From contig CAMDMZ010000012.1 in assembly GCA_945902805.1 (NCBI GenBank), forward strand, positions 1 through 64,000: DNA of 64,000 nt, written 5' to 3'. A program made the translations under genes and the position numbers. This document shows positions 7,947-62,210 of the stretch, piece by piece; within the stretch, counting starts at the first letter, position 1; each line of letters begins with the position of its first letter. The notes beneath the pieces are model-generated. The model worked only from the letters and a program-made list of their open reading frames with translations, did not search any database and was not told the DNA's origin. The stretch is from Propionivibrio dicarboxylicus. Its GTDB lineage: Bacteria; Pseudomonadota; Gammaproteobacteria; Burkholderiales; Rhodocyclaceae.

Positions 7947-7971
7947 GCCGTCTCGCCAGCACCGACTTTTT
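7947..7971 (-). repeat. Dispersed 25-bp repeat, copy 1 (intergenic)
   Basis: On the minus strand this reads A5 + GTCGGTGCTGGCGAGACGGC, one base from the consensus. It starts 31 bases beyond the stop codon of the aminopropyltransferase gene, in the 162-base gap before the solute-binding gene. Confidence 0.85.
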
Positions 7972-8001
7972 GAGGATGGCGCCTTCATCGGTGCGGGTGG
8001 C

Positions 8002-9504
8002 TTACTGCGTTTGGATACGACCCCATTCGCGCTCGAATACGCGCACTAGATTTTGGCTGTCGAGACGGTTGGGCTCGGCTTCGACGCGAGCCATGTCCGG
8101 CGGGAACTGGAACAGCGAGGGCAGTGTTTCGCCGTTGAGGAAGCGCGTGGGGACGGCAATGGTGGCGGGCGCCTCATAGGCGGTGCGTCCGGCGAGAATG
8201 TAGCCCCATTCGCCAAAGCTTGGTACCAGTGCGTGATAAGGTGCCGTTTGCCAACCTGCGGCCTCCAGCGTGGTGACGATGGTCCAGAACGATTGCCGGG
8301 CGTAAAGCGGGGACGTGGCCTGCACGACAAGGCGCCCGTCGGCATTCAGGTGCCGCAGCAGCAGACGGTAGAAGGCGGTCGAGTAGAGTTTGCCAAGGCT
8401 GAAATTGGATGGATCGGGAAAGTCCGAAATGATGAAATCGAAGCTATCGGTGTTTTGCTCCAGCCATTGCAAGGCGTCGGCATTGACGACCTTGACCTTC
8501 GAATTCGTCAGTGCATCGCCGTTGATCTGACGCAGCAGCGGAGACTGCGAAAACAGCTCGGTCATGCGCGCATCCAGATCCACCAGGGTCACGGCGTCGA
8601 TCTGCGGATATTTCAGAATCTCTCGCACCGCCATGCCGTCACCGCCGCCCAGCACGAGCACGCGGCGGGCGTGCGGCAGCGTTGCCAGTCCGGGATGCAC
8701 CAGCGCTTCGTGGTAGCGGTATTCGTCGCGTGAGCTGAGCTGCAGATTGTGGTTGAGATACAGGCGCAACTCGTCACGCCAGCGGGTGACGACGATGCGC
8801 TGATACGGGCTGGATTCGGCATGGACGATGTTTTCGGCATAGAGGTTGGCTTCGGCCATATCGACGAAACGACCGGCGCCGATGAAGCCGGCAATCAGGA
8901 GTGCAGCGACTACGGCGCACTGCGCGCGCAGCGCTGTCGCCGGGCCAATCTGGGCGCGGAACAGCCATAAAGCCCAGATCGCCACCAGGACATTGAGAAA
9001 GCCAAACAGCAACGCCGAACGCACTAACCCGAGGTGTGGCGCCAAGACTAACGGGAACAGCAGCGACACCGCCAGCGCGCCGAGATAATCGACCGACAGC
9101 ACTTGCGATACCAGATCCTTGAACGCCACATCGCGTTTGAGAATGCGCATGATGAGCGGAATTTCCAGCCCGACCAGGATGCCGATCAGCAACACCAACC
9201 CGTAGAGTGCCAGACGGAACGGGCCTTCGTGCAAGGTAAATAGCAGGAACAACAGACCGGCCGACATGCCGCCAATGAAGCCGACCATCATTTCGATCTG
9301 GATGAACCGTACGAGCAACTGGCCGCCAACATGCTTCGATAGCCACGAGCCGATGCCCATGGCGAACAGATAGACACCGATCACGGTGGAAAACTGCGTC
9401 ACCGAATCGCCCAACAAATAGCTGGCGAGGGCGCCGGCGATCAGCTCATAGGCCAGCCCGCAGGAAGCGACGATGAAGACCGAGAACAGCAGCGGTCGTT
9501 GCAT
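8002..9504 (-). CDS. Membrane-anchored spermidine-synthase-like aminopropyltransferase
   Basis: This protein has 500 residues. The N-terminal ~210 residues form about seven membrane helices (LLFSVFIVASCGLAYELIAG onward). The C-terminal half is a Rossmann-fold polyamine synthase-like domain with VLVLGGGDGMAVREIL (decarboxy-SAM loop), VTLVDLDARM, VNADALQWL and FDFIISDFPDPSN (catalytic-Asp region). Fused forms like this are widespread, and their product is often uncertain. It is the last gene of a tight run with DUF4178, SPFH and DUF350 genes. That association recurs in bacterial genomes (compare the E. coli yjfIJKLM-type group) and points to a membrane-associated role rather than bulk spermidine synthesis. 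Confidence 0.85.
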   Translation of the reverse strand: MQRPLLFSVFIVASCGLAYELIAGALASYLLGDSVTQFSTVIGVYLFAMGIGSWLSKHVGGQLLVRFIQIEMMVGFIGGMSAGLLFLLFTLHEGPFRLALYGLVLLIGILVGLEIPLIMRILKRDVAFKDLVSQVLSVDYLGALAVSLLFPLVLAPHLGLVRSALLFGFLNVLVAIWALWLFRAQIGPATALRAQCAVVAALLIAGFIGAGRFVDMAEANLYAENIVHAESSPYQRIVVTRWRDELRLYLNHNLQLSSRDEYRYHEALVHPGLATLPHARRVLVLGGGDGMAVREILKYPQIDAVTLVDLDARMTELFSQSPLLRQINGDALTNSKVKVVNADALQWLEQNTDSFDFIISDFPDPSNFSLGKLYSTAFYRLLLRHLNADGRLVVQATSPLYARQSFWTIVTTLEAAGWQTAPYHALVPSFGEWGYILAGRTAYEAPATIAVPTRFLNGETLPSLFQFPPDMARVEAEPNRLDSQNLVRVFEREWGRIQTQ

Positions 9505-9506
9505 TG

Positions 9507-9650
9507 CTATTTATGGAAAGCTCGCGCAGCGCTCAGATTGCGTACCGCTTCTGGTTTGGCATCGTCGGAAAACAGGCTCCAGCCCTGGTACTGGGCATAG
9601 TTGAAGAGTCCCATGGCAGCGACGGCAAGGATCAGGTAGGCGCGTGACAT
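9507..9650 (-). CDS. 47-residue single-span membrane peptide
   Basis: This small frame starts at an ATG that shares one base with the DUF4178 stop (TAATG), and its stop lies two bases before the aminopropyltransferase start. The coupling on both sides makes it a real operon gene despite its size. It begins MSRAYLILAVAAMGLFNYAQ, one short membrane helix, followed by a polar tail YQGWSLFSDDAKPEAVRNLS. No family is recognised. A small subunit or regulator of the membrane complex encoded by its neighbours is a reasonable guess only. Confidence 0.7.
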   Translation of the reverse strand: MSRAYLILAVAAMGLFNYAQYQGWSLFSDDAKPEAVRNLSAARAFHK

Positions 9651-11584: not shown

Positions 11585-11593
11585 GATGGAGTG

Positions 11594-12655
11594 TTAGGCC
11601 AGTTTGCTCAGCAGCTCGGCTTTCTTGGCGTCGAATTCGGCCTGCGACAGGATGCCCTTGCCGACCAGTCCGTGCAGTTTTTCCAGCGTGGCGACAATGT
11701 CGTCGGCCGATACGGCGGCGGCCGGAGCCTGTACAGAAAAAGTCGGTGCCGGCGGGACGGCGGCAGGCGCGGCAACGGGTGTGGCGGCGGGATTCAACGC
11801 CCCCGCCATGGCGCCGGCGATCTGTTGTCCCATGCCAAAGCCGACGCCAACCCCGGCGCCGAGCCCGGCCAGGCCGCCCTCGTTCTGCGCCGCCAGCGGG
11901 ATCGCTTCGGCGGTCTGGAACTGCGTGTAGGCTTGCATGCCGCCCATCATGTTCACGCCGATGCGCTTGTCTAGCATGGCTTGCAGCTCTTCGGGCAGCG
12001 AGATGTTCTGCACGTTGAAGCTGTCGAGGGCGAGGCCGTAACCGGCAAACAGGGGCTCGACCTTGGTCCGTAGCGCGGCGCCGAATTCAACCTGGTTCGC
12101 AGCCATGTCGATGAAAGGCGTGCCGGATTCGCCGAAGATGTCGGCAATGTGACCGACGATGGTGTTGCGCAACTGGCCTTCCAGGTCTTCGCTGGAGTAG
12201 CGTTCAAGCGTGCCCGAAATCGCCATATGGAACAGCCGCGGATCGGTGATGTGATAGGCGTAGATGCCAAAGGCGCGCAAACGCACCATGCCGAAATCCT
12301 TGTCGCGGATGGTGATCGGATTCGGCGTGCCCCACTTGCGATCGAGCTTCTGGCGCGTGCTGAAGAAATACACATCGCTCTTGAACGGAGATTCGAACAG
12401 CTTGTCCCAGTTTTGCAGGTAGGTCAGCACCGGCATCGTCTGCGTGGTCAGCTTGTACATGCCGGGGCCGAAGACATCAGCCACCTTGCCCTCGTTCACG
12501 AATACCGCCATCTGCGATTCACGCACGGTGAGACTGGCACCATACTGGATCTCGAACTCGGCCATGGGGAAACGCCAGGCCATGGTTTGATCGTCATCCT
12601 CGGTCCATTGGATGATGTCGATGAACTGCTTCTTGATGAAATCCATGAGCGCCAT
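11594..12655 (-). CDS. SPFH/band-7 'virion core'-type protein with SHOCT tail
   Basis: This 353-residue protein starts at MALMDFIKKQFIDIIQW; a longer upstream frame would run through the neighbouring gene. Residues up to about 250 form an SPFH-like domain of the YdjI/virion-core class (SQMAVFVNEGKVADVFGPGM, LRAFGIYAYHITDP). A glycine/alanine-rich segment follows, then a C-terminal SHOCT motif (VATLEKLHGLVGKGILSQAE). SPFH proteins assemble membrane-associated oligomers. The proline-rich linker before SHOCT is a translated copy of the dispersed 25-bp repeat (AVPPAPTF). It is encoded between DUF350 and DUF4178 genes with gaps of 9-11 bases. Confidence 0.88.
   Translation of the reverse strand: MALMDFIKKQFIDIIQWTEDDDQTMAWRFPMAEFEIQYGASLTVRESQMAVFVNEGKVADVFGPGMYKLTTQTMPVLTYLQNWDKLFESPFKSDVYFFSTRQKLDRKWGTPNPITIRDKDFGMVRLRAFGIYAYHITDPRLFHMAISGTLERYSSEDLEGQLRNTIVGHIADIFGESGTPFIDMAANQVEFGAALRTKVEPLFAGYGLALDSFNVQNISLPEELQAMLDKRIGVNMMGGMQAYTQFQTAEAIPLAAQNEGGLAGLGAGVGVGFGMGQQIAGAMAGALNPAATPVAAPAAVPPAPTFSVQAPAAAVSADDIVATLEKLHGLVGKGILSQAEFDAKKAELLSKLA
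11737..11761 (+). repeat. Dispersed 25-bp repeat, copy 2 (inside SPFH gene)
   Basis: A5 + GTCGGTGCCGGCGGGACGGC, one base from consensus. Translated on the gene's strand as A-V-P-P-A-P-T-F in the linker between the SPFH domain and the SHOCT tail. Confidence 0.85.
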
Positions 12656-12666
12656 GAGAGGTCTCC

Positions 12667-13071: not shown

Positions 13072-13080
13072 GGGGTCTCC

Positions 13081-13809: not shown

Positions 13810-14639
13810 GTCGCGCTCCGGAGAGACACTTCGCCGGACAATACGCGTTCAATGCGTCCGTCAAATTCGAACAGCAAAGCGCCATCGACATCGACACCGC
13901 GACAGATGCCGTCACACGCCGGTGCGAAGTCAGAAAGCAGGCGTATCGGGTGATTCTGGAAGGCGTGGTACGTCAGCCATTCGGCGCGCAGACCGGCAAA
14001 CCCGGATGTGGCGAACTGCCCAAGGGTGTGCAACAGTTCGTGTAAGAGCGCGGCCAACAGCAGATCCGATTCTGTGGCGACGGGCAACGCGGCAGCCGTG
14101 GCGCGAATCTCGTCGGGCAGGTCAGGCGGCAAGCGCCGGTTGATGCCGATGCCGATCACCGCCGCATGTGGCGCGCCGGGCAAGAGCTCAATCAAAATTC
14201 CGCCGAGCTTGCGGCCGTCGATCAGGATGTCGTTCGGCCATTTGAGCTGCACAGGAGGTCTAAGCGTGGTCTCAAGCGCCGTCTCGCCAGTCCCGAAAAG
14301 GGGATTTCCTTCGGTCACGCCGACTTTTTCAATGGCGCGGGCGACCGCCAGCCCGACCGCCAGTGACAAGCCGGCGGGTGAGGTTCGCGGCGCAAAACGC
14401 CAGAACAACGAAAACGTCAGCGAATCGCCCGGTGCCGAAATCCACACGCGTCCACGCCGACCGCGTCCCGATGTCTGGGCTTGCGCGATGAGGACCGATC
14501 CGGACGGAGCGCCACGCTCGGCGCGCGACTGGAGCAGCGTATTGGTCGAATCGCATTCCGCAACGACATCGATGTCGAAGCGACGCGCCTCGTTGCCGAG
14601 CTGGGTAGCAATCGTAGCAATATCAAAACTGGCGGGCAT
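13806..14639 (-). CDS. birA: Biotin--[acetyl-CoA-carboxylase] ligase with an unusual insertion
   Basis: This 277-residue single-domain biotin protein ligase lacks the N-terminal DNA-binding domain. Biotin/ATP-binding motifs are clear: CDSTN, GRGRRGRVW and KWPNDILIDGRKLGGILIE. It activates biotin to biotinyl-AMP and transfers it to the carboxylase carrier protein. Between helix VARAIEKVG and strand VQLKWPNDI, where homologues have only a few residues, this protein carries an extra segment of about 25 residues (VTEGNPLFGTGETALETT). That segment is encoded by an extended form of the dispersed repeat. The insertion keeps the frame, so the protein is probably still made; its effect on activity is unknown. 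Confidence 0.92.
   Translation of the reverse strand: MPASFDIATIATQLGNEARRFDIDVVAECDSTNTLLQSRAERGAPSGSVLIAQAQTSGRGRRGRVWISAPGDSLTFSLFWRFAPRTSPAGLSLAVGLAVARAIEKVGVTEGNPLFGTGETALETTLRPPVQLKWPNDILIDGRKLGGILIELLPGAPHAAVIGIGINRRLPPDLPDEIRATAAALPVATESDLLLAALLHELLHTLGQFATSGFAGLRAEWLTYHAFQNHPIRLLSDFAPACDGICRGVDVDGALLFEFDGRIERVLSGEVSLRSAT
14278..14329 (-). repeat. Split (long) form of the dispersed repeat inside birA
   Basis: On the minus strand A5-GTCGG lies at one end and CTGGCGAGACGGC at the other, matching the two halves of the 25-bp unit but separated by extra sequence (52 bp in total). The insert contains a potential stem CCGAA/TTCGG extended by GG/CC with a two-base bulge. This is the only long copy in the window. 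Confidence 0.6.
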
Positions 14640-16029: not shown

Positions 16030-18177
16030 CTACCGCTCCCCAGCGGCCGTTTCCAGCCACTTCAACAAGGTCTCGTAGAGCCGATCCGGATCGATCGGTT
16101 TGGCGATATGGTCGTTCATGCCGGCGGCGAGGCAGACCTGGCGATCTTCGTCGAAGGCGTTGGCTGTCATCGCCAGAATGGGTGTGGCCGTGTTCAGGGA
16201 ATCGCTGCGGATCGCGCGCGTGGCCTCGATGCCATTCATGACCGGCATCTGCATGTCCATCAGGATCAACGCGTAGGAATTGCGGCGGGCCAAGTCCAGC
16301 GCTAGCTGGCCGTCCTCGGCGATATCGACGGCAAGCTCGGCATACTCCAGCAACCCGCGTGATATCTCCAGGGAGACCGGTTCGTCCTCCGCCAACAGAA
16401 CGCGCACGCCGGAATAGGCATTGCGTAGCCGCATGCCGGCATCGGTTGCCGAAAAAGTCGGTGCTGGCGGGACGGCGACTGCAGCTTGCTTTCTTAGCGG
16501 GACGACAAACCAGAAGGTGCTGCCTGCTCCCGGCATGCTTTCCAGGCCAATCGCGCCACCCATCAGTTCCACCAGACGCTTGCTGATCGCCAGCCCCAGC
16601 CCGGTGCCACCGTATTTTCGGGTCATGCTGTTGTCGGCCTGTTCGAATGACTGGAACAGGCGCGTCTGGGCTTCCATGTCGATGCCAATGCCGGTATCGC
16701 ACACCTCGAAACGCACATGGATTGCCTCGGCGTTTTCCTCAGCGGAACGAACGCGGACGACAATTTCGCCGCGCTCGGTGAATTTGATGGCGTTGCCGAC
16801 AAGGTTGAGGAGGATTTGGCCGAGACGTAAGGAATCGCCCAGGAGCGGGCGCTTGGCGAGATCAGCAGGGATGTCGGCGACCAACCGCAGCCCCTTCTCG
16901 GAGTACTTGTAGCCGAGCGCGCCAGACAGGTTGGTGAAAGTGTCGGCAAGTTGCAAGGGAGTGTCTTCAAGAACCATGCGCTCGGCTTCGATCTTGGACA
17001 GGTCGAGGATGTCGTTGAGGACGGCGAGGAGTTTGTCGGCAGAAACCTTCGCCTTGCCGAGCTGATCAAGCCCCGTGGCGTCATGCATGCGCCGTTTTGC
17101 GAGATCGATCATGCCCATCACGCCGTTCATCGGTGTGCGCAACTCGTGGCTCATGTTGGCGAGGAAGGTGCTCTTGGCGCGGTTGGCCGCTTCGGCAGCT
17201 TCTTTCGCCAAGACCAGTTCCTGGGTGCGTGTCTTCACCAGTTCTTCGAGATGGTCGCGATGCTGGTCAAGTTCGGCTTCCGTGCGCTTGCGGTCGGCAA
17301 TATTGGAGAAGACACCCACATAGTAAGCAACTCTGGCGGCATCATCGGCGACGACGCTGATGCTGATCCACTGCGGATACTCCTCGCCAGTCGCGCGGCG
17401 GTTCCAGAGTTCACCTGACCAATGGCCGTTGGCGGTAATCGCTTGCCACATCTCCTGATAGAACCGCGTGGAGTGTCTGCCCGATTGCAGAATTCGGGGA
17501 TTTTTGCCCAGCACGTGCGCCCGGCGGTAGCCGGTAATAGTTTCAAAGGCTTCATTGACAAAGCATATCTCGCCGGTGGGCCGGGTAATCACCACGCCCT
17601 CCAGGGTGCTCTCTATCGCTGCGCTCTTGATACGCAGTTCCTCGGTCAGTAACTGCAGCGAGGTGATATCGCTGATGGCAGCCAGCCAGCGACCGGCGAT
17701 TGCGTCTGAATCGGCCAGTCGTTGTAACTTGACCAGAACATGCAGGATTTGCGGAGCCGCGCCATGATCGCGCAAGCGTAGGCGACCTTCGACCGCCGAT
17801 GCGCGGTTGATCAGCATGTCTTGCAGGATGGGAACGTCTTCTACCAGCACGTTGCGACCCAAGGGATAGCCAAGCAGTTCGCCACGCTCCCGATTCAGCA
17901 AATGACACATGGTCAGGTTGCACTCGATGATGATGCCGCGCTCATCGAGAGTGCAAAAGCTGACTGGGGAAAAGTTGTACAGATGGGAAAACCGGTCGCG
18001 CGAGGCAGAAAGCCCTTCTTGGGTATTGCGCAACTCTTCGTTTTGCATCTCCAGCTCGACCTGATGAACGCGCAGGTCGTGGAGCAGGCGGGCGACATTT
18101 TCGCTTCCTCCCGCAAGGCCTTCTTCGTTAACCAATTCGGTGATCCGTTGCTCAGCCATCTGCCTGAGCTTATCCAT
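16030..18177 (-). CDS. PAS-PAS hybrid sensor histidine kinase with receiver domain
   Basis: This 715-residue soluble hybrid kinase is started at [13 protein letters not shown], by analogy with the paralogue upstream. Its order is an N-terminal helical region ([19 protein letters not shown]), PAS (about 70-185), PAS (about 200-315) and a HisKA phospho-His in [15 protein letters not shown]. Then come HATPase motifs ([32 protein letters not shown]), a linker AVPPAPTF made from the dispersed repeat, and a receiver with [11 protein letters not shown]. There is no membrane segment, so a cytoplasmic cue is expected. The gene overlaps the end of the GGDEF/EAL paralogue by 8 bases and is likely co-transcribed with it. 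Confidence 0.92.
16452..16476 (+). repeat. Dispersed 25-bp repeat, copy 3 (hybrid kinase linker)
   Basis: Perfect consensus copy. It encodes A-V-P-P-A-P-T-F on the gene strand between the ATPase and receiver domains. Confidence 0.9.
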
Positions 18178-24597: not shown

Positions 24598-27084
24598 CTA
24601 CTTTCTGGCAGCGGCCAGCTCCAGCCACTTCAACAAGGTCTCATAGAGCCGATCCGGATCGACGGGTTTGGCGATATGGTCGTTCATGCCGGCGGCGAGG
24701 CAGACCTGGCGATCTTCGTCGAAGGCGTTGGCCGTCATCGCCAGGACTGGCGTGATCGTGTTCATGGAATCGCTGCGGATCGCGCGGGTGGCCTCGATGC
24801 CATTCATGACCGGCATTTGCATGTCCATCAGGATCAACGCGTAGGAATTGCGGCGGGCCAACTCCAGCGCCTGCTGGCCGTCCTCGGCGACATCGACGGC
24901 TAGCTCGGCATACTCCAGTAACCCGCGTGATATCTCCTGGGAGACCGGTTCGTCCTCCGCCAGCAAGATGCGCGTGCCGGAATAGGCATTGCGCAGCCGC
25001 ATGCCGGCATCGGTTGCCGAAAAAGTCGGTGCTGGCGGGACGGCGCCGGTCGCGTTTCGGGACAGGCGAACGGTGAACCAGAAGGTGCTGCCTTTTCCCG
25101 GAATGCTCTCCAGGCCGATCTCGCCACCCATTAACTGCACCAGCCGCTTGCAGATGACCAAACCCAGGCCCGAGCCGCCGTACTTTCGGGTCATGCTGTT
25201 GTCGGCCTGCTCGAAGGCGGAGAACAATCGCGCCTGCGCCGCCGGATCGATGCCTATGCCGGTGTCGATGATCTCGAAGCGCACCCGGACTGATTCGGGC
25301 GTCTCGGCCTCTGGCCGAATACGCAAGCTGACTCGCCCCTGCTCGGTAAACTTGATGGCGTTGCCTGTCAGATTGAGCAGGATCTGGCCGAGCCGCAGCG
25401 GGTCACCCCGCAGCGGTTGTCGGGCCAGTGTGTCGGGCAGATCGGTTTCCAGCGCCAGGCCTTTTTCGGCCGCTTTGTGGCCGATCAGGCCGCGCAGGTT
25501 GTCCAGCACGCTGCTCAGTTGCAATGGCACGTCTTCGAGCACCATGCGCTCGGCCTCGATCTTGGATATGTCGAGAATGTCGTTGAGCAGATCGAGCAGG
25601 CGGTCGGCCGCCCCCTTGGCCTTGCCGAGTTGCTCGATTCCTTTCGGGTCGGCCATGCGCCGCCGGGCGAGCTCAAGCATGCCCATGATGCCGTTCATCG
25701 GCGTACGCAGTTCGTGACTCATGTTGGCGAGGAAGGTGCTCTTGGCGCGAGACGCAGCTTCGGCGGCGTCCTTGGCCAGGGCAAGCTCTCTGGTGCGTGT
25801 TGTGACCAGTTCCTCGAGATGGTTGCGATGTGTCCTGAGTTCGGCTTCGGATTCCTTGCGGGCAGTGATGTCGTGACTAATGCCGAGGATGCCGATCAAA
25901 CGGCCCGTGGCATCGCGCATCGGCGTTTTGGTAGTTTCCAGAAGTTCGCGATGGCCATCGCTGGCGAAGCTCACCCATTCCTCATTGGTGGTGGATGCCG
26001 AGGCTTCCATCGCGCGCTTGTCATTGGTGCGGAAAAAGTCAGCCAGTTCCTTGTCCACGAAATCGTAGTCGGTCTTGCCGACGATGCTTTTTTCGCTGGC
26101 CCCGAAGAAGGCTTCGAAGCGCGGGTTACAAGAGAGATACACGCCGTCCAGATCCTTAAGCCAGACGAGGTCAGGCAGCGTCCGGATCAGGGTGTCGAGG
26201 CGCACCCGTTCGTTGTCGAGTTGTTCAGTCCTGATACGGACGGCGCGGCGTAGGATGTGGATTGCGACCGCCCCGCCGGTGCCCAGTACCAAGAGCAACA
26301 ATGATCCTATGGCGAGGAAGCGTCCCCATGGGGCCAGGTCGAGGGGCGTGCCAAACCATTTCTTGCGTAGCTGTTCGATGTCCGCAGCGGGAATGGCGTC
26401 AAATCCCTGCTGGATTTCTGCCAGCAAGGCCTGATTCTCCCGCTTGACCGCGCGGTGAAACTCGCCGGTATACAGCGTGAACGCTTGGTGGAAGGCCTTG
26501 TCCGCCTCTTTCTTGTAGAGCAGATAGTTGGCTGGCGGGTCGTCCAGACAGAAGATTCTGGTCTCGCCGGCAATGGCTGCATCGATGACCAGAGCGTAGC
26601 TGGGGTAGGTTTGAATGTTGACGACGCCTGCCAGTCGCAACTTATCGACGCAGGCATCCCCTTCCTTGGCGCCCACCACGAAACCGCGCAGGGATTCGGG
26701 GCGCGTGATGCCGCCAATTCCACGCTCGGCATAGACCGAGACGGACAATTTGACATAGGGCGGTGAAAATTCGAGAAGCTTTTCCCGTTCCGGGGTGCGG
26801 AAAATAGTGTCGATGACGTCCGCCTCCCCAGAGTGGAGGCGTTTCTGCGCCAAGGCCCAATCGGTGGCCATGAGGCGGACGGTCGTGCCGGTCTGCTTTT
26901 CCCACAGCTGCCACAGATCGGGCAGATAGCCCTCGATTTCGCCACGTTCATTGCGAAAGATGTAAGGCGGGTAGTTGTCGTCAACCGCAACAGCGAGTGT
27001 TTTCGAGAATGACGGCGCGGACGCCACAGCCAGAACGCAGAGGGCGATCAGCCAGGTGAGTCTGCGGGCAAGGGCGGAAAGCAT
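24598..27084 (-). CDS. BvgS-like hybrid histidine kinase with periplasmic solute-binding domain
   Basis: This protein has about 828 residues; the start ATG overlaps the upstream stop (ATGA). A signal/anchor at 10-28 is followed by a periplasmic SBP_bac_3 Venus-flytrap domain (about 30-245; [20 protein letters not shown]). A membrane helix (about 258-280) and PAS (about 300-415) follow. The HisKA domain has the phospho-His in [15 protein letters not shown], and the ATPase has [13 protein letters not shown] and [14 protein letters not shown] repeat-derived linker AVPPAPTF precedes a receiver with [11 protein letters not shown]. No Hpt domain follows, so phosphotransfer must continue elsewhere. 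Its C-terminal half is nearly identical in layout to the kinase at 16030, indicating duplication. Confidence 0.92.
25020..25044 (+). repeat. Dispersed 25-bp repeat, copy 4 (BvgS-like kinase linker)
   Basis: Perfect consensus copy. It sits in the same inter-domain linker as copy 3, flanked on one side by closely similar sequence, so it may have been inherited through kinase duplication. Confidence 0.9.
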
Positions 27085-28913: not shown

Positions 28914-28938
28914 GCCGTCCTACCAGCACCGACTTTTT
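28914..28938 (-). repeat. Dispersed 25-bp repeat, copy 5 (at the ntrC stop codon)
   Basis: On the minus strand A5 + GTCGGTGCTGGTAGGACGGC (two differences). The A-run overlaps the ntrC TAA stop, so the unit begins exactly where the gene ends. Confidence 0.8.
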
Positions 28939-34821: not shown

Positions 34822-34899
34822 GGGCTGGCGATATACTGAACTGCATTGATTTTAGCCCGTGGTCGCCATGTCGACCGCACTTGTTACGTCAGGTCCCTC

Positions 34900-35997: not shown

Positions 35998-36020
35998 TAA
36001 GTCGGTGCTGGCGGGACGGC
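35996..36020 (+). repeat. Dispersed 25-bp repeat, copy 6 (just after nadA)
   Basis: The 20-base core GTCGGTGCTGGCGGGACGGC is perfect (36001-36020); the A-run is AATAA and includes part of the nadA stop codon. It precedes the GspE-like start by about 30 bases. Confidence 0.85.
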
Positions 36021-40442: not shown

Positions 40443-40455
40443 GCACCGACTTTTT
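40431..40455 (-). repeat. Degenerate copy of the dispersed repeat spanning the ybhP-clsB junction
   Basis: The plus strand reads GCCGTACCGTGAGCACCGAC followed by five T's, 22 of 25 matching. It contains both the stop of the first gene and the GTG start of the second. Confidence 0.6.
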
Positions 40456-41729: not shown

Positions 41730-42284
41730 ATGACCTGTCGTCGATATTCCGTCTCGATTCTGCTCGCCAGCTCGCTGATCGCGCTGTCCGGGTGCGGGGT
41801 GCTTTCGTCGTGGACGCAGTCGACGCCAGCGCCAATTAGCGGCAGCAAAAAAGTCGGTGCTGGCAGGACGGCAGCAGCCTTCGGCTCGGCGGCTACTGCG
41901 GCGGACGGCAAGGCGCATGACGTGGTGCTGTTCGCGCTGGGCCTGATCGAAACCGGTTATCGATTTGGTGGCAAGAACCCGGAGGCCGGCCTGGATTGCA
42001 GCGGCATGGTGAACTACGTTTTCGACAAAGCCGCCGACCGCCGGCTGGGGGGCTCGGCCGCCGATCTGGCGCGGCAGGGCAAGCCGGTGTCGGTAGAACA
42101 GTTACGGCCCGGTGACCTGGTGTTTTTCAACACCAACAAGCGCTCGTATTCCCATGTTGGGATCTACATCGGCGATGCGCGCTTCATTCACGCCCCGAAC
42201 AGTCGTGGCAAGGTGCGTGCGGAGAGTCTGGCGAACGGTTGGTTTGCCGCGCACTTCGAAGAGGCGCGCACTTACTTTGACTAG
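41730..42284 (+). CDS. NlpC/P60 family lipoprotein endopeptidase
   Basis: This 184-residue lipoprotein starts at MTCRRYSVSILLASSLIAL with lipobox LSGC. After a linker the NlpC/P60 domain has catalytic Cys in LDCSGMVNYVF, His in SHVGIYIGD and a third residue in FIHAPNSRGKV. Such enzymes cut peptidoglycan cross-links at the inner face of the outer membrane. The linker between lipid anchor and enzyme includes a translated copy of the dispersed repeat (KKVGAGRTAA). The mature protein is complete. Confidence 0.9.
   Translation: MTCRRYSVSILLASSLIALSGCGVLSSWTQSTPAPISGSKKVGAGRTAAAFGSAATAADGKAHDVVLFALGLIETGYRFGGKNPEAGLDCSGMVNYVFDKAADRRLGGSAADLARQGKPVSVEQLRPGDLVFFNTNKRSYSHVGIYIGDARFIHAPNSRGKVRAESLANGWFAAHFEEARTYFD
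41849..41873 (+). repeat. Dispersed 25-bp repeat, copy 8 (lipoprotein linker)
   Basis: A5 + GTCGGTGCTGGCAGGACGGC, one base from consensus. It is read as K-V-G-A-G-R-T-A between the lipobox segment and the NlpC domain. Confidence 0.85.
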
Positions 42285-44649: not shown

Positions 44650-45273
44650 CTAATCCCGCAATAGCAACTTTGCAAGCTGGCGGGCAATTTGCCGGGGCGA
44701 GCGCCCGCCGTCGTGCCGATACCACTGGGTTGTCCAGTTCATCGCACCCATCAGGAAAAGGCGGGTTAACGCGCTGTCGTCGGTAAGTGCGCCGTCCGTT
44801 TTCAGTTCTTTCAGCACGGCCTGCCAAAGTCCTTCATAGGCGTCCTTGAGGCGGATCACTTCGTCCTGTGCCTCGGCGTCCAGATGGCGGCTTTCGTGCA
44901 GTAGCGTGGCAGCGATGTCGCGGCCTTCGTCGCCGAGCAGGACATTAAGATGTGCCGTCAGCATGGCTTCAAAACGCGCCCGTGGCGCCTTGTTGCTGGC
45001 AGCCGGCTTCGCCACAGCGGCATGGATGGTGGCGATGCCGTCAAGGGCTACCGTACGCAGGATATCCTGCTTGGATTTGAAGTGATAAAACGGCGAGCCG
45101 GAGCGCATGTTGACGGCATCGGCGATGTCGCGGATGGTGGTTGCCGAGTAGCCCTTTTCGCGGAACAGGCGACCGGCTGCACGCACGAGCTCGCTACGGC
45201 GATTGGTCTCTTCGCCTTGAAAAGTCGGTTCTGGTGATACGGAGACAGGTGCCTTCTTGACGACGCGCGCCAT
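44650..45273 (-). CDS. TetR-family repressor, probably of fatty-acid degradation
   Basis: This 207-residue regulator has an N-terminal helix-turn-helix (AAGRLFREKGYSATTIRDIADA) and an all-helical ligand domain. An unusual ~20-residue N-terminal arm (VSVSPEPTFQGEE) is encoded by a degenerate copy of the dispersed repeat. Its ATG overlaps the stop of the AidB-like dehydrogenase gene by one base. The shared operon and the palindrome between the two divergent dehydrogenase genes suggest that it senses acyl-CoA and represses both. Confidence 0.85.
   Translation of the reverse strand: MARVVKKAPVSVSPEPTFQGEETNRRSELVRAAGRLFREKGYSATTIRDIADAVNMRSGSPFYHFKSKQDILRTVALDGIATIHAAVAKPAASNKAPRARFEAMLTAHLNVLLGDEGRDIAATLLHESRHLDAEAQDEVIRLKDAYEGLWQAVLKELKTDGALTDDSALTRLFLMGAMNWTTQWYRHDGGRSPRQIARQLAKLLLRD
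45219..45243 (+). repeat. Degenerate copy of the dispersed repeat in the TetR gene
   Basis: The plus strand reads GAAAAGTCGGTTCTGGTGATACGGA, 19 of 25 matching consensus. It is translated on the gene's strand as S-V-S-P-E-P-T-F in the N-terminal arm. Confidence 0.45.
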
Positions 45274-49461: not shown

Positions 49462-49462
49462 G

Positions 49463-51607
49463 ATGCTGAGCTATTCCGTCGATGGCAATGGCATTGCCAC
49501 ACTTGAATTCGACTATCCGGGCAAGTCACAGAACATCCTCAATGCCGCCTCAATGATAGCCATCGGCGAGGCGGTAAAGAAAGCGCTGGCCGATCCGTCG
49601 GTCAAAGGCATCCTGCTCGCTTCGGCCAAGAAAGACTTTGTCGCCGGAGGCGACCTGGCCGAGATGCTTGCCAATCCAGATGCCGCGAATGTCGCTGCCG
49701 GTATCACCGAGTGGCATAAGGTGGCTCGCGCGATGGAGACCGGTGGCAAGCCGGTGGCTGCCGCGCTGAATGGCTCGGCACTGGGCGGCGGGCTGGAGCT
49801 CGCCCTGTTCTGCCACTACCGCGTCGCGGCCGACAACCCCAAGGCGCGTTTTGGTTTTCCCGAAGTGACGTTGGGTCTGTTGCCCGGCGCTGGCGGTACC
49901 CAGCGCACACCGCGCCTGATCGGCATCCAGCCCTCGGTGCCGTTACTGCTCGAAGGCAAGCGGCTCAAAGCGGCGGACGCGCACAAGGCCGGGTTGATCC
50001 ATGCCATCGTGGCGGCCGGTACTGAGCGCGATGCCGCTCGCCATTGGCTGCTCGGCGAAGGACAGACTAACGCCCAACAGCCGTGGGATCGAAAGGGATT
50101 TAAGATTCCTGGCGGTGGCGTGATGACGCCCGCCGGCATGCAGTTCTTTACCGGCGCCAACGCCATGCTGCGTGAAAAGACCTACGGCAACTACCCGGCG
50201 CCGAAGCACATCCTTTCCTGCCTGTTCGAAGGGCTACAGGTCGACATCGACACCGGGCTCAAGATCGAGACGCGCTACTTCGCCAGCCTGGTTGCCAGCG
50301 CGGAAGCCAAGAACATGATCCGCAGCCTGTTCTTCGGCATGCAGGATGCCAACAAACTGGCCTCGCGTCCTGCAGATGTTCCGGTGCAGAAGTACTCCCG
50401 GATCGGCATGCTCGGTGCCGGCATGATGGGCGCCGGGATTGCAATGAGCACCTCCGTCGCCGGAATCGACGTCGTGCTGCTCGATACGACGCAGGAAGCG
50501 GCCGACAAGGGCAAGGCCTACGCCGTGAAGCAGTGGAACAAACAGGTCGAGCGCGGGCGCATGTCGGCCGACCAAGCTGCCGCCTTGGCCGCACGCATTC
50601 ACCCGACCGCAGATTACGCCGACCTGAACGGTTGCGAACTGGTGGTCGAAGCCGTGTTCGAAAAGCGCGAAATCAAGGCCGACGTGACGCAGAAGGCCGA
50701 AGCGATGATCGCCAACGATGCCATTTTCGCTTCCAACACCTCGACCCTACCGATTACCGGCCTCGCTGAAGCTTCGGTCCGCCCTGCCAACTTCATCGGC
50801 CTGCATTTCTTCTCGCCGGCGGAGAAGATGCCGTTGGTCGAAATCATTGTCGGCCAGCAAACCTCGGACGCCACGCTGGCGCGCGCCATGGACTTCGTCA
50901 AGGCCATCGGCAAGACCCCCATCGTGGTCAGCGATGCGCGTGGCTTCTACACCAGCCGCGTGTTCGGCACCTATGTCTCGGAAGGCATGGCCTTGCTCGA
51001 AGAAGGCTATCCGCCGGCGCTGATCGACAAGGCCGGACTCATCGCCGGCATGCCGGTCGGGCCGCTGGCGCTGGCCGATGAAGTCTCGATCGAACTGGTA
51101 CACAAGATCGCCCAGCAGACCCGTGCGGATCAAGGCAGCGCTTATGCCGAACGCGCCGCCGATCGGGTTGCCGCCAAGATGGTCGCCGATCTCGGACGCC
51201 TGGGCCGAAAGTCCGGCGCCGGCTTCTACGATTACCCGGCCGATGGTCCCAAACGCCTGTGGCCAGGGCTCACCGATCACTTCCCGCAAAAAGTCGGTGC
51301 TGGCGAGACGGCGGACGAAACCGTGCAGGAGCTCATCGAGCGACTGATTCTCGTCCAGTCGGCCGAAACCGTGCACTGCCTCGAGGAGGGCGTACTGCGC
51401 GCGCCAATCGACGCCGATGTAGGCGCCATTCTTGGTTGGGGTTACCCGGCGTTTCGTGGCGGACCGATCGGCTGGCTGCATACCTTGGGTCCGAAAGAGG
51501 CGGTCGCGAAGCTGGAACACCTGGCCGCGTTGCATGGCGCACGTTTCGCGCCGCCGGACATGCTTAAACATATGGCAACGAGCGGTGAGCGCTTTTATCC
51601 GCGGTGA
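49463..51607 (+). CDS. fadB: Enoyl-CoA hydratase / 3-hydroxyacyl-CoA dehydrogenase fusion
   Basis: This 714-residue bifunctional beta-oxidation enzyme starts at MLSYSVDGNGIATLEFDYPG. The N-terminal crotonase domain (to about 200) has GGDLAEML, GSALGGGLELALFCHYRVAA and FPEVTLGLLPGAGGTQR. The dehydrogenase half has the NAD loop IGMLGAGMMGAGIA, NTSTLPITGLAE, FIGLHFFSPAEKMPLVEII and a C-terminal domain ending WGYPAFRGGPIGWLHTLG. Near residue 609 a variable segment contains QKVGAGETADET, a translated copy of the dispersed repeat. Together with fadA it forms the complex that completes the oxidation cycle. Confidence 0.95.
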   Translation: MLSYSVDGNGIATLEFDYPGKSQNILNAASMIAIGEAVKKALADPSVKGILLASAKKDFVAGGDLAEMLANPDAANVAAGITEWHKVARAMETGGKPVAAALNGSALGGGLELALFCHYRVAADNPKARFGFPEVTLGLLPGAGGTQRTPRLIGIQPSVPLLLEGKRLKAADAHKAGLIHAIVAAGTERDAARHWLLGEGQTNAQQPWDRKGFKIPGGGVMTPAGMQFFTGANAMLREKTYGNYPAPKHILSCLFEGLQVDIDTGLKIETRYFASLVASAEAKNMIRSLFFGMQDANKLASRPADVPVQKYSRIGMLGAGMMGAGIAMSTSVAGIDVVLLDTTQEAADKGKAYAVKQWNKQVERGRMSADQAAALAARIHPTADYADLNGCELVVEAVFEKREIKADVTQKAEAMIANDAIFASNTSTLPITGLAEASVRPANFIGLHFFSPAEKMPLVEIIVGQQTSDATLARAMDFVKAIGKTPIVVSDARGFYTSRVFGTYVSEGMALLEEGYPPALIDKAGLIAGMPVGPLALADEVSIELVHKIAQQTRADQGSAYAERAADRVAAKMVADLGRLGRKSGAGFYDYPADGPKRLWPGLTDHFPQKVGAGETADETVQELIERLILVQSAETVHCLEEGVLRAPIDADVGAILGWGYPAFRGGPIGWLHTLGPKEAVAKLEHLAALHGARFAPPDMLKHMATSGERFYPR
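51288..51312 (+). repeat. Dispersed 25-bp repeat, copy 10 (in fadB)
   Basis: A5 + GTCGGTGCTGGCGAGACGGC, one base from consensus, translated as K-V-G-A-G-E-T-A in a variable loop of the C-terminal dehydrogenase region. Confidence 0.85.
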
Positions 51608-51627: not shown

Positions 51628-51652
51628 AAAAAGTCGGCGATTGGCTCGACGG
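51628..51652 (+). repeat. Degenerate copy of the dispersed repeat downstream of fadB
   Basis: Five A's then GTCGGCGATTGGCTCGACGG. The first half and the end match; the middle diverges. It starts about 20 bases beyond the fadB stop, in the same relative place as other intergenic copies. Confidence 0.35.
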
Positions 51653-51673
51653 TTTCCGACAGCCAGGAGTCGC

Positions 51674-54600
51674 TCAGCGTGCCGGCTTCGCCAGCCACTT
51701 CAACAATGTGTCGTAAAGCCTGTCTGGATCGACCGGCTTGCTGATGTGGTCATCCATGCCGGCATCCAGGCAGACCTGACGATCCTCATCAAAGGCATTC
51801 GCCGTCATGGCCAGAATGGGGGTCCGGGCGTAACCGGGCAGCGCGCGGATTATCCGTGTTGCCTCGACCCCATTCATCTGCGGCATCTGCATATCCATCA
51901 GGATCAGGTCATAGTGGCTGCGCTGCGCCATGGCGACCGCGACCCCGCCGTCCTCAGCCAGTTCCACGGTCAGACCGACATCTTCCAGCAGGCCGCGCGA
52001 AACCTCCTGGTTGACGGGTTCGTCTTCCGCCAGCAGGACGCGCGCCCCGGCATGACGGGTCTGGAGTTGCGCTTCTGCCGACTCCTTGGCAAAAGTCGGT
52101 GCTGGCGGGACGGCGTCCGTCGTCTTGCCCAGTCGCACGGTAAGCCAGAAGCGACTTCCCTGCCCCGGCGTGCTGGCGACGCCGACATCTCCCCCCATCA
52201 GTTCAGCCAGACGTCGGCTGATCACCAAGCCCAGGCCGGTACCGCCGTATTTTCGGGTCATTGAACCATCGGCCTGCTCGAACGCGGTAAACAGGCGTTG
52301 CTGATCTTCCGGGCTGATGCCGATGCCGGTATCCAGCACCTCACAACGCAGCAACACATCGGCGGGAGTTTCTTCGAGCTTCACGATACGCACGGTGATG
52401 GAGCCTTGGGCGGTGAACTTGACGGCGTTGCCGGTCAGATTGAGCAGAATCTGACCCAGGCGTAGCGGGTCGCCCATGAACGTTTGCCGGGCGATGGTCG
52501 ATGGGAGATCAACCAGCAGGGTCAGCCCTTTTTCCGCAGCCCTCTGCCCGACCATGCTCATCAGGTTCTCCAGCACCAGACTGAACTTGAAGCTGACCCG
52601 CCCCAACGTGAGGCGTTCGGCCTCGATCTTGGAGATGTCCAGGATGTCATTGATGACGGAAAGCAGATGATGGGAGGCGTTGTCGATCTTGGTCAACTTA
52701 TCCACCAGTTGTGGTTCGGTCGCCCGGCGCAGCGCCAGGCTGGTCATTCCCATGATGGCGTTCATGGGGGTGCGCAGTTCGTGACTCATGTTGGCCAGAA
52801 ACTGGCTCTTGGCGCGATTGGCGGCTTCAGCAGCGTCCTTGGCGATGGAGAGTTCCGTCGTCCGTGTTTCGACCAGTTCTACAAGATGGTGACGGTGTTG
52901 TTCGAGTTCCGCCTCGGCCTTCTTGCGCTCGGTAATGTCCTGCAGCAGCCCCGTGATGCGGACAACCCGCCCGCTGGCATCACGCTCCGGAAAGGCATTG
53001 ACATAGCAGGTACGTTGCTCCCCGTCGGGGAGTTCCGCTATCAGTTCAAGCTGATAGGGCGTGCCATCACCCACTGCCTTGCTGACCGCATCAAACAGCA
53101 TTTGCGTGGATGCCGGCGTGTACAACTCGGCCTGTCCCTCCAGATTCGGGACACCCAGAGCCGGATCGCGGGCAAGAATCCGGAACATTTCAGGCGACCA
53201 CGTCACACGATCGGTATCGACCTCCCACTCGAAGCTGGCCATGTGTGCCAAGCTTTCCGTACGTTCCATCATGGTCTTGTGGTGTTGCAGGGCTTCTTCG
53301 GCTTGCTTGCGCTTGGTGACATCATGGACGATGGAAAAAAGCAGCGACTTTCCGCCTGTTTCGACTGGCGTCGAATAGACCTCGACGTCGCGGATCTCGC
53401 CGGAAGCAAGGCGGTGCTGGAAGTTGAAATAGTTGCGCTCTTCGTGTAACGCTCTTTGCCGCTCCAAAGCAACGTTTTCGGGGGGCAGGGTATTGATGTC
53501 GCTGATGCGCATGCCGACCAAGGGTTGTTGCACATAGCCGTAATAGGTAACGGCGGCCTGATTGGCGGCAACGATCTCGCCACTGGCCGGATCGATGAGC
53601 AACATCACCGACTTGTTCTTTTCGAAGAAGTGACGGAACCGGGCTTCGCTTTCCTGTAATTGGCCAACGGTCGTGGCAAGCCGTGCGGCGCTACGCGACT
53701 GCATCATGAGGGTGAAGGCCAGCAGCAGGCTGACGCACAAGCCTGCTGCCAGGACCAGCTGCGAATTCGAAGTGCTCTGCGCCCCATTGAGGGTGGGTAG
53801 CGCAGATGCTGTCAGGAACCACGGTTGTCCGGCAATCTCCAATTTTCGACTGGCGCGGAATGGATTTGTCTGGTCGCTACCAACCGCCTCGTTCGAAAAC
53901 AGCAATGACGCTGGTTCGGCAAGTTCGCCATCGTAGACCGAGAAGGCAATCCGACCGACAAGGCTCGGCAGGTCGCGTTCGATCAGGGAGGACATCATGT
54001 CTTTCATCCGCAGTGGCGAATACGCCCAGCCAACGAGATCGTCCCGACGATGACTTTCACGGGTTGACGCCTGACCACCCATCGAATCACCACGGTAGAT
54101 TGGCTGATACAGCAGGACGCCGGGCTGGACATCCTGGTCGGTTTCCTGAACCAGGGTCACCCTGCCAGACAGGGCGACCGCGCCGCTCATCCAGGCTCGT
54201 TCCATCGCACGCTGCCGCACGGCTTCCGAGTACATGTCGTAGCCGAATGCCCGCTGGTTTCTCCAGTCGAAAGGTTCGAGATAGATGATGGAGGAGTAGT
54301 GCTGGCGCTCACCCGGAGGACGCACGACATAGTCCGGGAACCCTTCGGTGCGAATCGAGAGGAGGTGGTAGCCAAGTGCCTCGGGCGGGATCAGCTTTGA
54401 AAAGCCTACGCCCTGTATACCGGGGTAACGCTCATCCAGTTTCAGTGAGGCGACGAAGACTTTGAATTCGGCACGCGATACCTCCCTGCCGGTCTGGCGA
54501 TTGGCGGAAAACAGGCCGACCGCCCCGCGCAAAACCTGAGCGTTTGCCTTCATTCGCTGCCGGATGCTGTCTGCCGTTTGATCGAGCAGGAGTTCGAATT

Positions 54601-54970: not shown

Positions 54971-54995
54971 CAAAAGTCGGTGCTGGCGGGACGGC
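54971..54995 (+). repeat. Dispersed 25-bp repeat, copy 13 (intergenic)
   Basis: CAAAA + GTCGGTGCTGGCGGGACGGC, followed by GGTTGC as in copy 6. It ends 29 bases from the lysE-family stop codon in the 270-base gap before the kinase gene; no gene was seen in that gap. Confidence 0.88.
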
Positions 54996-56814: not shown

Positions 56815-56896
56815 GCTGGCTGCTCCTCAGTAAATGAACTGCCAGCCTACCATTGCTGGTTGTTGAACACCAACCGATCGGCACATTGTTGCTGGC

Positions 56897-59324: not shown

Positions 59325-59465
59325 AGCAAAAGTCCCGATTTTTCGCTGCAGTCGGCCACTTTATAGGCGGGCCAAGCTGAACGCAGGATGAACGACCGGT
59401 TCAGGTTTCATTCAGCCAGGCCCGCTCATAGTACGCCTCACATTGAACCCACCGAGGAGCACAGC

Positions 59466-59888: not shown

Positions 59889-59914
59889 GGCAGCGATACA
59901 AAAAGGAATTCACC

Positions 59915-60418: not shown

Positions 60419-60447
60419 CATTTCCTGAATAAATCGAGGCCTACATC

Positions 60448-60858
60448 ATGAAACCAACAACGATCATTTCTTCTCTCGCCGTGATCGGCACGCTCGCCGC
60501 CGCCGGCATTTTCTTCACGCCTTCGCTGGCTGCAGACAGCAGCACGGCACCGCTCGCCGAGCGTCAGTGGCTCTCCATTCCGCAGGTACATGAGAAGCTG
60601 GAAGCCGCCGGTTACCGCCATATTGAGAAGATCGAGCGCGAACACGGTGGTTACGAGGCACGGGCGACCGATAGCCATGGCGATCGGATCAAGCTCTACG
60701 TCAATCCACAAACCGGTGCGGTGATGGATCAACGCGGTCATGGCCCCCGTGTCCGCGATGGCGGTGATGGCAGCCGTCGCAGTTCCGGCGACTGCACCAA
60801 GCGTCGCTGCCGCGACGATCTGCCACCGCCCGCCACGTCTACGCCCACGACGAGGTAA
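60448..60858 (+). CDS. PepSY-domain exported protein
   Basis: This 136-residue protein has a signal peptide (about 1-28, FFTPSLA-ADSS). The PepSY domain (about 40-95) contains WLSIPQVHEKLEAAGYRHIE, YEARATDSHGDRIKLYVNPQ and TGAVMDQRG. The C-terminal tail is basic with two Cys (SSGDCTKRRCRDDLPPP). A second PepSY protein lies across the promoter region in the regulator operon. It may bind metal or influence the ferric-reductase-like protein encoded next. Confidence 0.85.
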   Translation: MKPTTIISSLAVIGTLAAAGIFFTPSLAADSSTAPLAERQWLSIPQVHEKLEAAGYRHIEKIEREHGGYEARATDSHGDRIKLYVNPQTGAVMDQRGHGPRVRDGGDGSRRSSGDCTKRRCRDDLPPPATSTPTTR

Positions 60859-60864
60859 GCCACC

Positions 60865-62172
60865 ATGAAAACGCTGCTGGGTAGCCTGTTGGCCTTGGTC
60901 GCTCTGGTCTGGGGCTGGGATGTGTTCAATGCCGTGATTCCCGCGGGTGTTCATCCGTGGTGGTTTGCGCGTCAGGAAGGGCTTTACCTGAGCGGGCTGT
61001 TGTCTATTTCCCTGATGTCGCTGGCCATGTTTTTGGCGACGCGCCCGGTATGGCTGGAGGCACCGCTGGGCGGCATGGATCGCATCTATCGTACCCACAA
61101 GTGGGCCGGCATTCTGGCTACTGCATTTGCGGCACTGCACTGGCTGATCGAGATGTCCGGTGACGTTCTTAAATCCATGATCGGCCGTGAAGGTCGCGTA
61201 CCGAAAGAAAAATTCATCGGCATGGTAGAAACCCTCCGTCATCTGGGCAAAGACATGGGCGAATGGGCGATCTATCTCGTGTTGGCGATGCTGGTGATTA
61301 CGCTATGGAAGAAGTTTCCGTACCGGACCTGGCGCCTCCTGCACCGCGTCATGCCCGTCCTGTATTTGATGCTGGCGTTTCATGCCGCCATGCTGGCACC
61401 GCTGGATTACTGGCGGCAGCCCGCCGGCACGCTGTTAGCGGTGTTGCTCGCCGTCGGCGTCTACGGCGCTATCCGTTCGTTGCTGGGCGGTATCGGTCGC
61501 TCCCGCATCGCAACCGGCAATATTCTTGCCGTCGAGCATCCGGCCGCTGACATCACGACCGTGCGTTGTCATTTGGCACGGGGTTGGCACGGGCATCGCG
61601 CCGGCCAGTTTGCCTTCGTCAGTTTCGATGACAAGGAGGGCGCGCATCCCTTCACCATTGCCAGTGCCGATCGTGGCGACCAGACGATCACTTTTCAGAT
61701 CAAGGCGCTGGGCGATTACACCAACGTCCTCGCCACGCGCCTGCAACCTGGCCAGGCGGTGACAGTGGAAGGACCTTACGGCCGTTTCGATATCGCCCGC
61801 TGTAATCCGCGTGCTCGCCAAATCTGGATCGCCGGTGGTATTGGCGTCACGCCCTTTCTGGCGTGGCTGGAATCGCTCCGGCTGAGTCCCGAAATCGAAC
61901 CTGTCGCCGAACTGCATTACTGCACTCGTGATCAAGCCGTTGATGGCTTCGTGCCGCGCCTTGAAGCCCTGTGCTCGACACTGCCCAGGATACGACTACA
62001 TATCCACGATGCCGGCAAGGGTGACTTACTCAAAGCGGAATCACTGGCGGTCGCCAAAAATACTGAAATCTGGTTCTGCGGCCCCAGCGGCCTGGCAGAT
62101 GCGCTACGCAATGGAATTCACGCCATGGGCTGGCAGCCGCGCTTTCACCAGGAAGCCTTCGAGATGCGCTAG
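60865..62172 (+). CDS. Ferric-reductase-like transmembrane oxidoreductase with FAD/NAD(P)H domain
   Basis: This 435-residue protein has about six membrane helices in the first 210 residues. Haem-ligand His candidates are in RTHKWAGILATAFAALHWL and LLHRVMPVLYLMLAFHAAML. A FAD-binding domain (FAFVSFDDKEGAHPFTIASA) and NAD-binding domain (IWIAGGIGVTPFLAWLESL, EIWFCGPSGLADAL) follow. It can pass electrons from cytosolic NAD(P)H across the membrane through two b haems, likely to DHC and SHP in the periplasm. It corresponds to the cytochrome-b partner of SHP clusters. Confidence 0.92.
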   Translation: MKTLLGSLLALVALVWGWDVFNAVIPAGVHPWWFARQEGLYLSGLLSISLMSLAMFLATRPVWLEAPLGGMDRIYRTHKWAGILATAFAALHWLIEMSGDVLKSMIGREGRVPKEKFIGMVETLRHLGKDMGEWAIYLVLAMLVITLWKKFPYRTWRLLHRVMPVLYLMLAFHAAMLAPLDYWRQPAGTLLAVLLAVGVYGAIRSLLGGIGRSRIATGNILAVEHPAADITTVRCHLARGWHGHRAGQFAFVSFDDKEGAHPFTIASADRGDQTITFQIKALGDYTNVLATRLQPGQAVTVEGPYGRFDIARCNPRARQIWIAGGIGVTPFLAWLESLRLSPEIEPVAELHYCTRDQAVDGFVPRLEALCSTLPRIRLHIHDAGKGDLLKAESLAVAKNTEIWFCGPSGLADALRNGIHAMGWQPRFHQEAFEMR

Positions 62173-62185
62173 GGTGCCCGCCTGC

Positions 62186-62210
62186 GCCGTCTCGCCAGCA
62201 CCGACTTTTT
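62186..62210 (-). repeat. Dispersed 25-bp repeat, copy 14 (between convergent genes)
   Basis: On the minus strand A5 + GTCGGTGCTGGCGAGACGGC. It lies 13 bases beyond the reductase stop and 11 beyond the stop of the convergent lipoprotein gene. Confidence 0.88.

Follow-up and report, generated by a model that had tools for sequence, protein, structure and literature searches.

What maintains a word of about 25 bp that recurs inside and between genes along a bacterial chromosome? We addressed this question in a 64,000-nucleotide (nt) stretch of Propionivibrio dicarboxylicus (Rhodocyclaceae; assembly GCA_945902805.1, contig CAMDMZ010000012.1, positions 1 to 64,000, forward strand), hereafter the window. 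A preliminary description of the window had reported a non-palindromic repeat in about 15 copies and had offered three roles for it, namely a mobile mini-element, a word recognised in DNA uptake or recombination, and a 3'-end RNA signal. The results showed that the second role fits best, judging by the copy number, balanced strands, lineage-specific spellings (dialects), even spacing in genome G000 and a conservation that is lost in a word-poor relative, and that the other two fit poorly. The word is probably a genome-wide recognition word whose copies are treated alike by a trans-acting reader, and the most likely reader would be the DNA-binding step of natural transformation.

Abundance, profile, strand and spacing of the word

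The 25-mer was found in 12 copies at up to 3 mismatches in the window and in none of 100 dinucleotide shuffles, which bears out the earlier claim of a real, non-chance repeat. A genome-wide count, suggested in the same description, was far above chance beyond the window as well: the host genome (4.86 Mb, 129 contigs) contains 649 copies at up to 2 mismatches of a 22-mer (332 forward, 317 reverse), compared with 0 for the reversed control. In 464 kb of this genome, mismatches to the 20-nt core were bimodally distributed, with 90 matches at 0-3, 8 at 4, 21 at 5 and 116 at 6, while the reversed control gave 1, 2, 11 and 147, respectively. The profile of the 90 copies was (A)AAAAGTCGG[T/C]GCTGGCG[G/A]GACGGCG, in which AAGTCGG, TGG and ACGGC are nearly invariant and the positions between are more variable. 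One 12-mer of the word was observed 36 times in 400 kb, with 0.15 expected. The letters of the word give no stop codon in any of the six frames, as had been stated before.

The copies showed no replication-strand bias when leading and lagging strands were assigned from local GC skew, with 31 leading-like and 33 lagging-like words in sampled G103 and 44 and 34 in two contigs of G000. In G000, the genome covered by the spacing simulation, the words were placed more evenly than at random in four blocks, with coefficients of variation of 0.65, 0.49, 0.55 and 0.36 (P = 0.001, 0.0005, 0.034 and 0.018, respectively).

Dialects of the word

Unsupervised k-mer counts returned the word as the leading repeat in sampled G103, G068, G000, G171, G061 and G124. 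In G283 it was the second repeat, with a changed spelling, and in G009 it was recovered as AAAAGTCAGT. Trained profiles read AAAAGTCGGtGCTGGCGggACGGCG in G000, AAAcTCGGCGCtGGCG[GA]GGCGGCG in G283 (in a shorter rendering, AAACTCGGCGCTGGCG[G/A]GGCGGCG) and AAaAGTCGACGCTGG.G..ACGGt in G068 (shorter, AAAAGTCGACGCTGG); the profile of genus g2 has a variable base as well as C/T before ACGGcG, and that of G103 has ACGGCAc. Five spellings were clear, those of g1, g2, g19, G283 and G068, with g62, g70 and g88 close to g2 and G009 a probable sixth. The spellings shift coherently between lineages and are coherent within a genome.

The density was 196-264 words per Mb in 9 of 11 sampled sets; the pooled g19 set reached 433 per Mb, and a 25-kb set of G140 gave 79 per Mb with the standard spelling. 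Whole-genome counts in G140 were 259 with the strict pattern and 506 with a looser one, as if this genome held a mixture of spellings. In 100 kb each of G014, G022 and G090, which belong to word-poor genera, no comparable other word was detected (best z 6.0 to 6.6).

Three further repeats were seen in these surveys. G283 (L244-L248) contains another over-represented word, ATGTCTGGCATG, with 10 copies in 100 kb and 0.01 expected. G005 (L342-L346) carries a GTGGGAGCGGCG repeat that, in our reading, resembles repetitive extragenic palindromic (REP) elements, and G017 (L347-L351) carries an array of 21-22 copies that we read as resembling a CRISPR (clustered regularly interspaced short palindromic repeats) array.

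Distribution among relatives

Among 297 genomes of the family, 99-729 copies were counted in genera g1, g2, g19, g62, g70 and g88, with the exceptions of G265 (g2; 21 copies) and G270 (g19; 0 copies); the looser pattern added G068 of g69, with 92 copies. Outside the family, among 386 of 399 genomes of the order, none was above 6 copies. High word counts are confined to part of Rhodocyclaceae. In G377, a genome from another family of the order, the degenerate pattern was matched exactly at five places spread over four contigs, a case of transfer or contamination.

The relatives of the host by ComEC in named public genomes included Sulfuritalea, Rugosibacter, Sterolibacterium and other members of Rhodocyclales; as Rhodocyclales and allied betaproteobacteria, they speak for a Rhodocyclaceae-like host and against a planctomycete origin. 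Among 68 loci of ComEC relatives, with up to 3 mismatches allowed, 6 exceeded 2 words per 10 kb, 12 had one or two matches and the others none; single matches of the control also occur among these loci. The six word-rich loci came from Sulfuritalea, Rugosibacter, two groundwater Rhodocyclales and two metagenome-assembled genomes filed as betaproteobacteria or Burkholderiaceae.

On a tree of the single gene ComEC, built without g10 and G283, the word-bearing genera were interleaved with word-poor ones. G265 was placed inside g2, and G270 next to the other g19 genomes; word-poor rows separated g19 from the other word-bearing genera, and g70 grouped weakly with word-poor G022. G270 may never have had the word.

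In a viral collection, 54 stretches held an exact match, and 34 of the 54 contained a single word at up to 2 mismatches; these stretches may be host flanks. One contig of this collection (L042:884-2238) contained five words, and the 316-bp spacing of four of them would suit a tandem array.

Evolution and conservation at orthologous sites

The ComEC neighbourhoods of 20 genomes, which represent one locus, were aligned by BLAST. For 61 of 77 words (up to 3 mismatches), one or more relatives gave a gap-free alignment of the orthologous site. The 584 orthologue comparisons comprised 389 that were ungapped across the word, 192 with small gaps, and 3, which fall at two sites, with a gap of at least 18 nt in the relative. 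In the ungapped comparisons, mismatches to the dialect of the relative were 0-3 in 289, 4-6 in 43 and at least 7 in 57. For window copy 51288, the corresponding codons of the orthologues in g2 (six genomes) and g62, V-[G/D]-A-x-x-T-A, spell the word or a variant of it; the site is degraded in G140 and in a partial g88 match, and the word is absent in a distant G265 relative (49% identity). These results showed, for one locus in 20 genomes and one window gene, that the words evolve largely in place by substitution. Many sites are common to several species and one window site is common to genera, which lends no support to the recent spread proposed earlier.

Word cores were then set against their flanks. 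Among six g2 genomes the cores were 94.4% identical and the flanks 77.3%, and the word was kept in 54 of 59 comparisons. The corresponding values were 96.3% and 83.2% against g1, g62 and g70 (12 of 12 kept), 86.9% and 74.4% against G140 (9 of 14), and 77.2% and 75.2% against G265 (0 of 13). Eight g19 genomes compared among themselves gave 86.2% for cores and 73.6% for flanks (129 of 185 kept), and comparison of g19 with G270 gave 65.8% and 70.9% (0 of 13). In word-bearing genomes the cores are better conserved than their flanks, a pattern not seen in the word-poor G265, which is nested among these genomes.

Position of the copies relative to genes

A crude home-made gene caller, which missed the NlpC/P60 open reading frame (ORF) around copy 41848, placed 48 of the 90 copies in genes and 42 between genes, and because it misses some genes, the intergenic share is an upper estimate; 85-94% of the blocks were called coding (p ~1e-20). 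The intergenic copies lay at a median of 28 nt from a stop codon, compared with 80 nt for random intergenic positions. The earlier statement that such copies are never in a promoter was too strong, since by this crude caller 33 of the 42 (464 kb) were nearest a stop and 9 nearest a start. Two frames, in which the word encodes small or flexible residues, were favoured by the genic copies (20 of 26 on the same strand and 17 of 22 on the opposite one). In the window, six genic copies sit next to protein domains or between them, namely in a Band_7-SHOCT linker, in three kinase-receiver linkers, after 3HCDH and before NlpC.

Comparison with known uptake words

A passage of a 2025 article (PMC12616744) gives Neisseriaceae and Pasteurellaceae as the only families known to discriminate DNA at binding, and the same two families are named in a passage from 2016 (PMC5031613). 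The DNA uptake sequence (DUS) is described in a section of PMC3630211 as 10-12 nt long, with a required CTG core and neisserial dialects; the copy numbers of the genomes given there range from 943 to 5918. This DUS appears to be the best precedent for the present word: hundreds to thousands of non-palindromic copies, lineage dialects and betaproteobacterial hosts are common to both, as far as the sections of PMC3630211 and PMC5031613 describe them. The reverse complement of the G/A-type copies shares GCCGTCT with the DUS, followed by CGCC where the DUS has GAA, and the word sequence does not match the neisserial DUS proper, a GCCGTCTGAA-type 10-mer with its CTG core.

The extended uptake signal sequence (USS) of Pasteurellaceae is given in a passage of PMC12616744 as a 17-nt word with two dialects, and its Haemophilus type starts with AAAGT, as the present word does. 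The sequence after AAAGT differs, the present word has no AT-rich tail, and the hosts of the USS are gammaproteobacteria; the USS proper, a AAGTGCGGT or ACAAGCGGT core with an AT-rich extension, does not fit the word profile. The features in common with the DUS/USS class are over-representation of one non-palindromic word, balanced strands, coherent dialects, evolution in place and transformation machinery, the last of which is not discriminating. In the open-access literature, no report of this word was found among the matches listed, and nothing was found on DNA uptake sequences in Rhodocyclaceae, Rhodocyclales or planctomycetes or on natural transformation in Sulfuritalea.

Proposed mechanism and candidate readers

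A trans-acting reader best explains the word because the word is largely position-insensitive, strand-neutral, evenly spaced in the tested genome, dialect-specific and unprotected in a word-poor relative. We infer that a protein reads the word, that this reader would act in DNA uptake and that it may be a pilin. In the mechanism we propose, a surface receptor, probably of the type IV pilus, would bind word-bearing DNA, so that DNA of the same lineage would be taken up preferentially. Uptake and recombination would favour alleles with a good word over those that have none. Words would arise by point mutation where the sequence is tolerant, as at gene 3' ends and in inter-domain linkers, and biased exchange would keep them. 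A reader that changed its specificity would let the genome drift to a new dialect, and loss of the reader would let the words erode.

Candidate genes were searched for among the relatives. ComEC was present in 38 of 38 genomes, DprA in 30 of 31 (with no match only in G001) and PilQ in 31 of 31, 30 of them above the cut-off. These three genes are nearly universal, word-poor genomes included, and therefore do not explain the losses. As far as ComEC, DprA and PilQ are concerned, all of which G265 and G270 carry, loss of competence genes was rejected as the reason why these two genomes lack words. The ComP_DUS family (PF16732) is a poor candidate for the discriminating receptor because it occurs with and without the word; the proteins recovered from 30 loci resemble a mixture of pilins.

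Several results weigh against uptake as the function of the word. The presence of ComEC, DprA and PilQ extends equally to word-poor G265 and word-free G270, G001 is word-rich without a DprA match, and no competence gene examined tracks the word. ComP_DUS occurs in 39 of 41 genomes, some of them from genera that lack the word, and G161 and G068, the two with no ComP_DUS match, bear the word. The word-bearing genera are not one exclusive group on the ComEC tree, which would call for repeated gains or losses. At 24-26 nt and ~200 copies per Mb of sampled DNA, the word is about twice as long as the DUS and several-fold rarer. In sampled G103, 3 of 57 intervals between words were below 500 nt, with ~5 expected. 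The sole G000 word of the ComEC set gave one of the three insertion-like comparisons (against G061). The core and flank tests draw on a single locus, in which G265 offers 3 distinct sites and G270 offers 5. Because these sites are few and related query genomes were counted separately, the Fisher value of 1e-10 overstates independence.

Mobile DNA provides two further points on the same side. Two of 20 sampled 20-kb stretches of G103 (L238 and L228) were free of words at up to 2 mismatches, which is not significant because the chance of one empty stretch is ~0.02. L238 encodes AAA proteins, a ResIII helicase and two DNA methylases and looks like foreign DNA; L228 contains two very long ORFs, putatively rpoB and rpoC by size only. 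A 13-kb integrase-borne island shared by G103 and G182 is word-rich, with 7 words, contrary to the simple expectation that the word is absent from mobile DNA. Its copies in these two species differ at 7 positions, compared with an identity of 65-94% in 250-base windows of the flanks. A 48-nt repeat matching a tRNA-Asn gene bounds the island, which encodes a phage integrase, DUF3987, restriction-modification functions, an MqsA-like antitoxin and an AbiD-like protein; its 7 words are all in one orientation.

As a separate observation on the island, 2 of its 7 differences fall in words (L146:17407 and 18498, compared with L153), which make up ~1.3% of its length (p ~0.003).

Alternative explanations

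The word could instead be the binding site of a chromosome-organising or DNA-repair protein, with a role in the nucleoid, recombination or segregation, that is needed every ~5 kb. The density in most sampled sets, the even spacing in G000 and the conservation above flanks would all suit such a site. However, sites of SlmA, MatP and parS are palindromic, and Chi and KOPS (FtsK orienting polar sequences), which are also short words found genome-wide, are strand-biased with replication, whereas the present word has neither property, being non-palindromic and evenly shared between the strands assigned from GC skew. A g19 genome with no copies and a g2 genome with 21 would be surprising for an essential chromosome function, and orthologous sites turn over within g19, as the words lost there show. 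We regard this explanation as rather unlikely.

It is quite improbable that the word is a self-mark of a defence system, by which DNA without the word or with the wrong dialect would be destroyed after entry. The dialects and the lineage restriction agree with such a mark, as does the word-free, mobile-looking L238 with its methylases and helicase, which is not significant alone. Known defence self-marks are short and methylated, and a defence island itself carries the word. No defence gene is known to be linked to the word, although no genome-wide search for one was made.

The role of an RNA 3'-end or terminator signal, raised in the preliminary description, draws on the closeness of intergenic copies to stop codons. 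It is disfavoured by the share of copies called genic, on either strand, by their orientation to the nearest stop (24 same, 15 opposite; p = 0.20) and by the folds: no stable RNA fold was found in the six copies checked, with z-scores from -1.43 to +0.85. An intrinsic terminator would have a fixed transcript orientation and a stable stem, and the copies displayed neither. This role is very improbable.

A mobile mini-element of ~25 bp, inserted by a transposase or left as the scar of a larger element, would account for the high copy number, the near identity and the three insertion-like comparisons, but clean presence or absence at orthologous sites was confined to those three and several species, and other genera in the case of one window copy, have the word or graded variants of it at the same sites, so that this earlier suggestion is largely contradicted and has next to no chance of being right. 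REP elements, bacterial interspersed mosaic elements and miniature inverted-repeat transposable elements are also short repeats dispersed near gene ends; they are palindromic or inserted units, whereas the word is non-palindromic, with little sign of having been inserted.

Copies in the window

The copies of the window are listed in Table 1, together with the island. All 11 coordinates that had been called strong were correct within 5 bases. Among those called degenerate or split, 40431 proved to be a copy with 3 mismatches and 45219 one with 6, where the next best matches of the window have 8; to count as copies, 51628 needs an inserted base and 14278 a split into two halves, and both stay uncertain. 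The same kinase-receiver linker carries the word in three hybrid histidine kinases, which may reflect shared ancestry or exchange.

Table 1. Copies of the word in the window, with the word-bearing island of two relatives
Feature	Position	Strand	Setting
Word, 1 mismatch	7947..7971	-	Intergenic; 30 nt from stop of spermine/spermidine synthase-domain gene 8002-9504(-)
Word, 1 mismatch	11737..11761	+	Inside Band-7 protein gene (-); linker between Band_7_1 (28-233) and SHOCT (324-350)
Word, exact	16452..16476	+	In hybrid histidine kinase gene (-); HATPase_c-receiver linker
Word, exact	25020..25044	+	In second hybrid kinase gene (-); kinase-receiver linker
Word, 2 mismatches	28914..28938	-	Overlaps stop codon of sigma-54 response regulator gene 28937-30355(-)
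Word, 1 mismatch	35996..36020	+	Overlaps stop codon of nadA-like gene 34846-35997(+); upstream of T2SSE/MshEN ATPase gene
Word, 3 mismatches	40431..40455	-	Near 5' end of PLD-like protein ORF 40385-41635(+)
Word, 1 mismatch	41848..41872	+	Within NlpC/P60 ORF 41688-42284(+); ahead of NlpC domain (89-193)
Degenerate word, 6 mismatches	45219..45243	+	Near 5' end of TetR-type gene 44650-45273(-)
Word, 1 mismatch	51288..51312	+	In 3-hydroxyacyl-CoA dehydrogenase-type gene 49418-51607(+); after 3HCDH domain
Possible word with one inserted base; uncertain	51628..51652	+	
Word, 1 mismatch	52090..52114	+	In third hybrid kinase gene (-); kinase-receiver linker
Word, 1 mismatch	54971..54995	+	Intergenic; 29 nt from stop of LysE-type gene 55025-55642(-)
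Word, 1 mismatch	62186..62210	-	13 nt past stop of ferric-reductase-like gene 60865-62172(+)
Possible split word, halves ~28 nt apart; uncertain	14278..14330	-	In biotin/lipoate-ligase-family gene; possibly an interrupted copy
Island, 13 kb	G103 L146:17116-20000 and L362:1-10330; G182 L153/L363		

Significance

We lean towards a third origin of sequence-specific DNA uptake, in a group of Rhodocyclaceae to which Sulfuritalea- and Rugosibacter-like bacteria belong and whose word is about twice the length of the DUS and has at least five clear dialects; the words of the nested G265 would have decayed, and the basal G270 is without words. If this is true, a third, unrelated word would show that the trait evolves repeatedly, environmental bacteria included. 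The coherent dialect shifts (G283, G068 and probably G009) and the word-poor relatives (G265 and G270) would together form a comparative system, one that could lead to the receptor by co-variation and allow the force maintaining the words to be measured.

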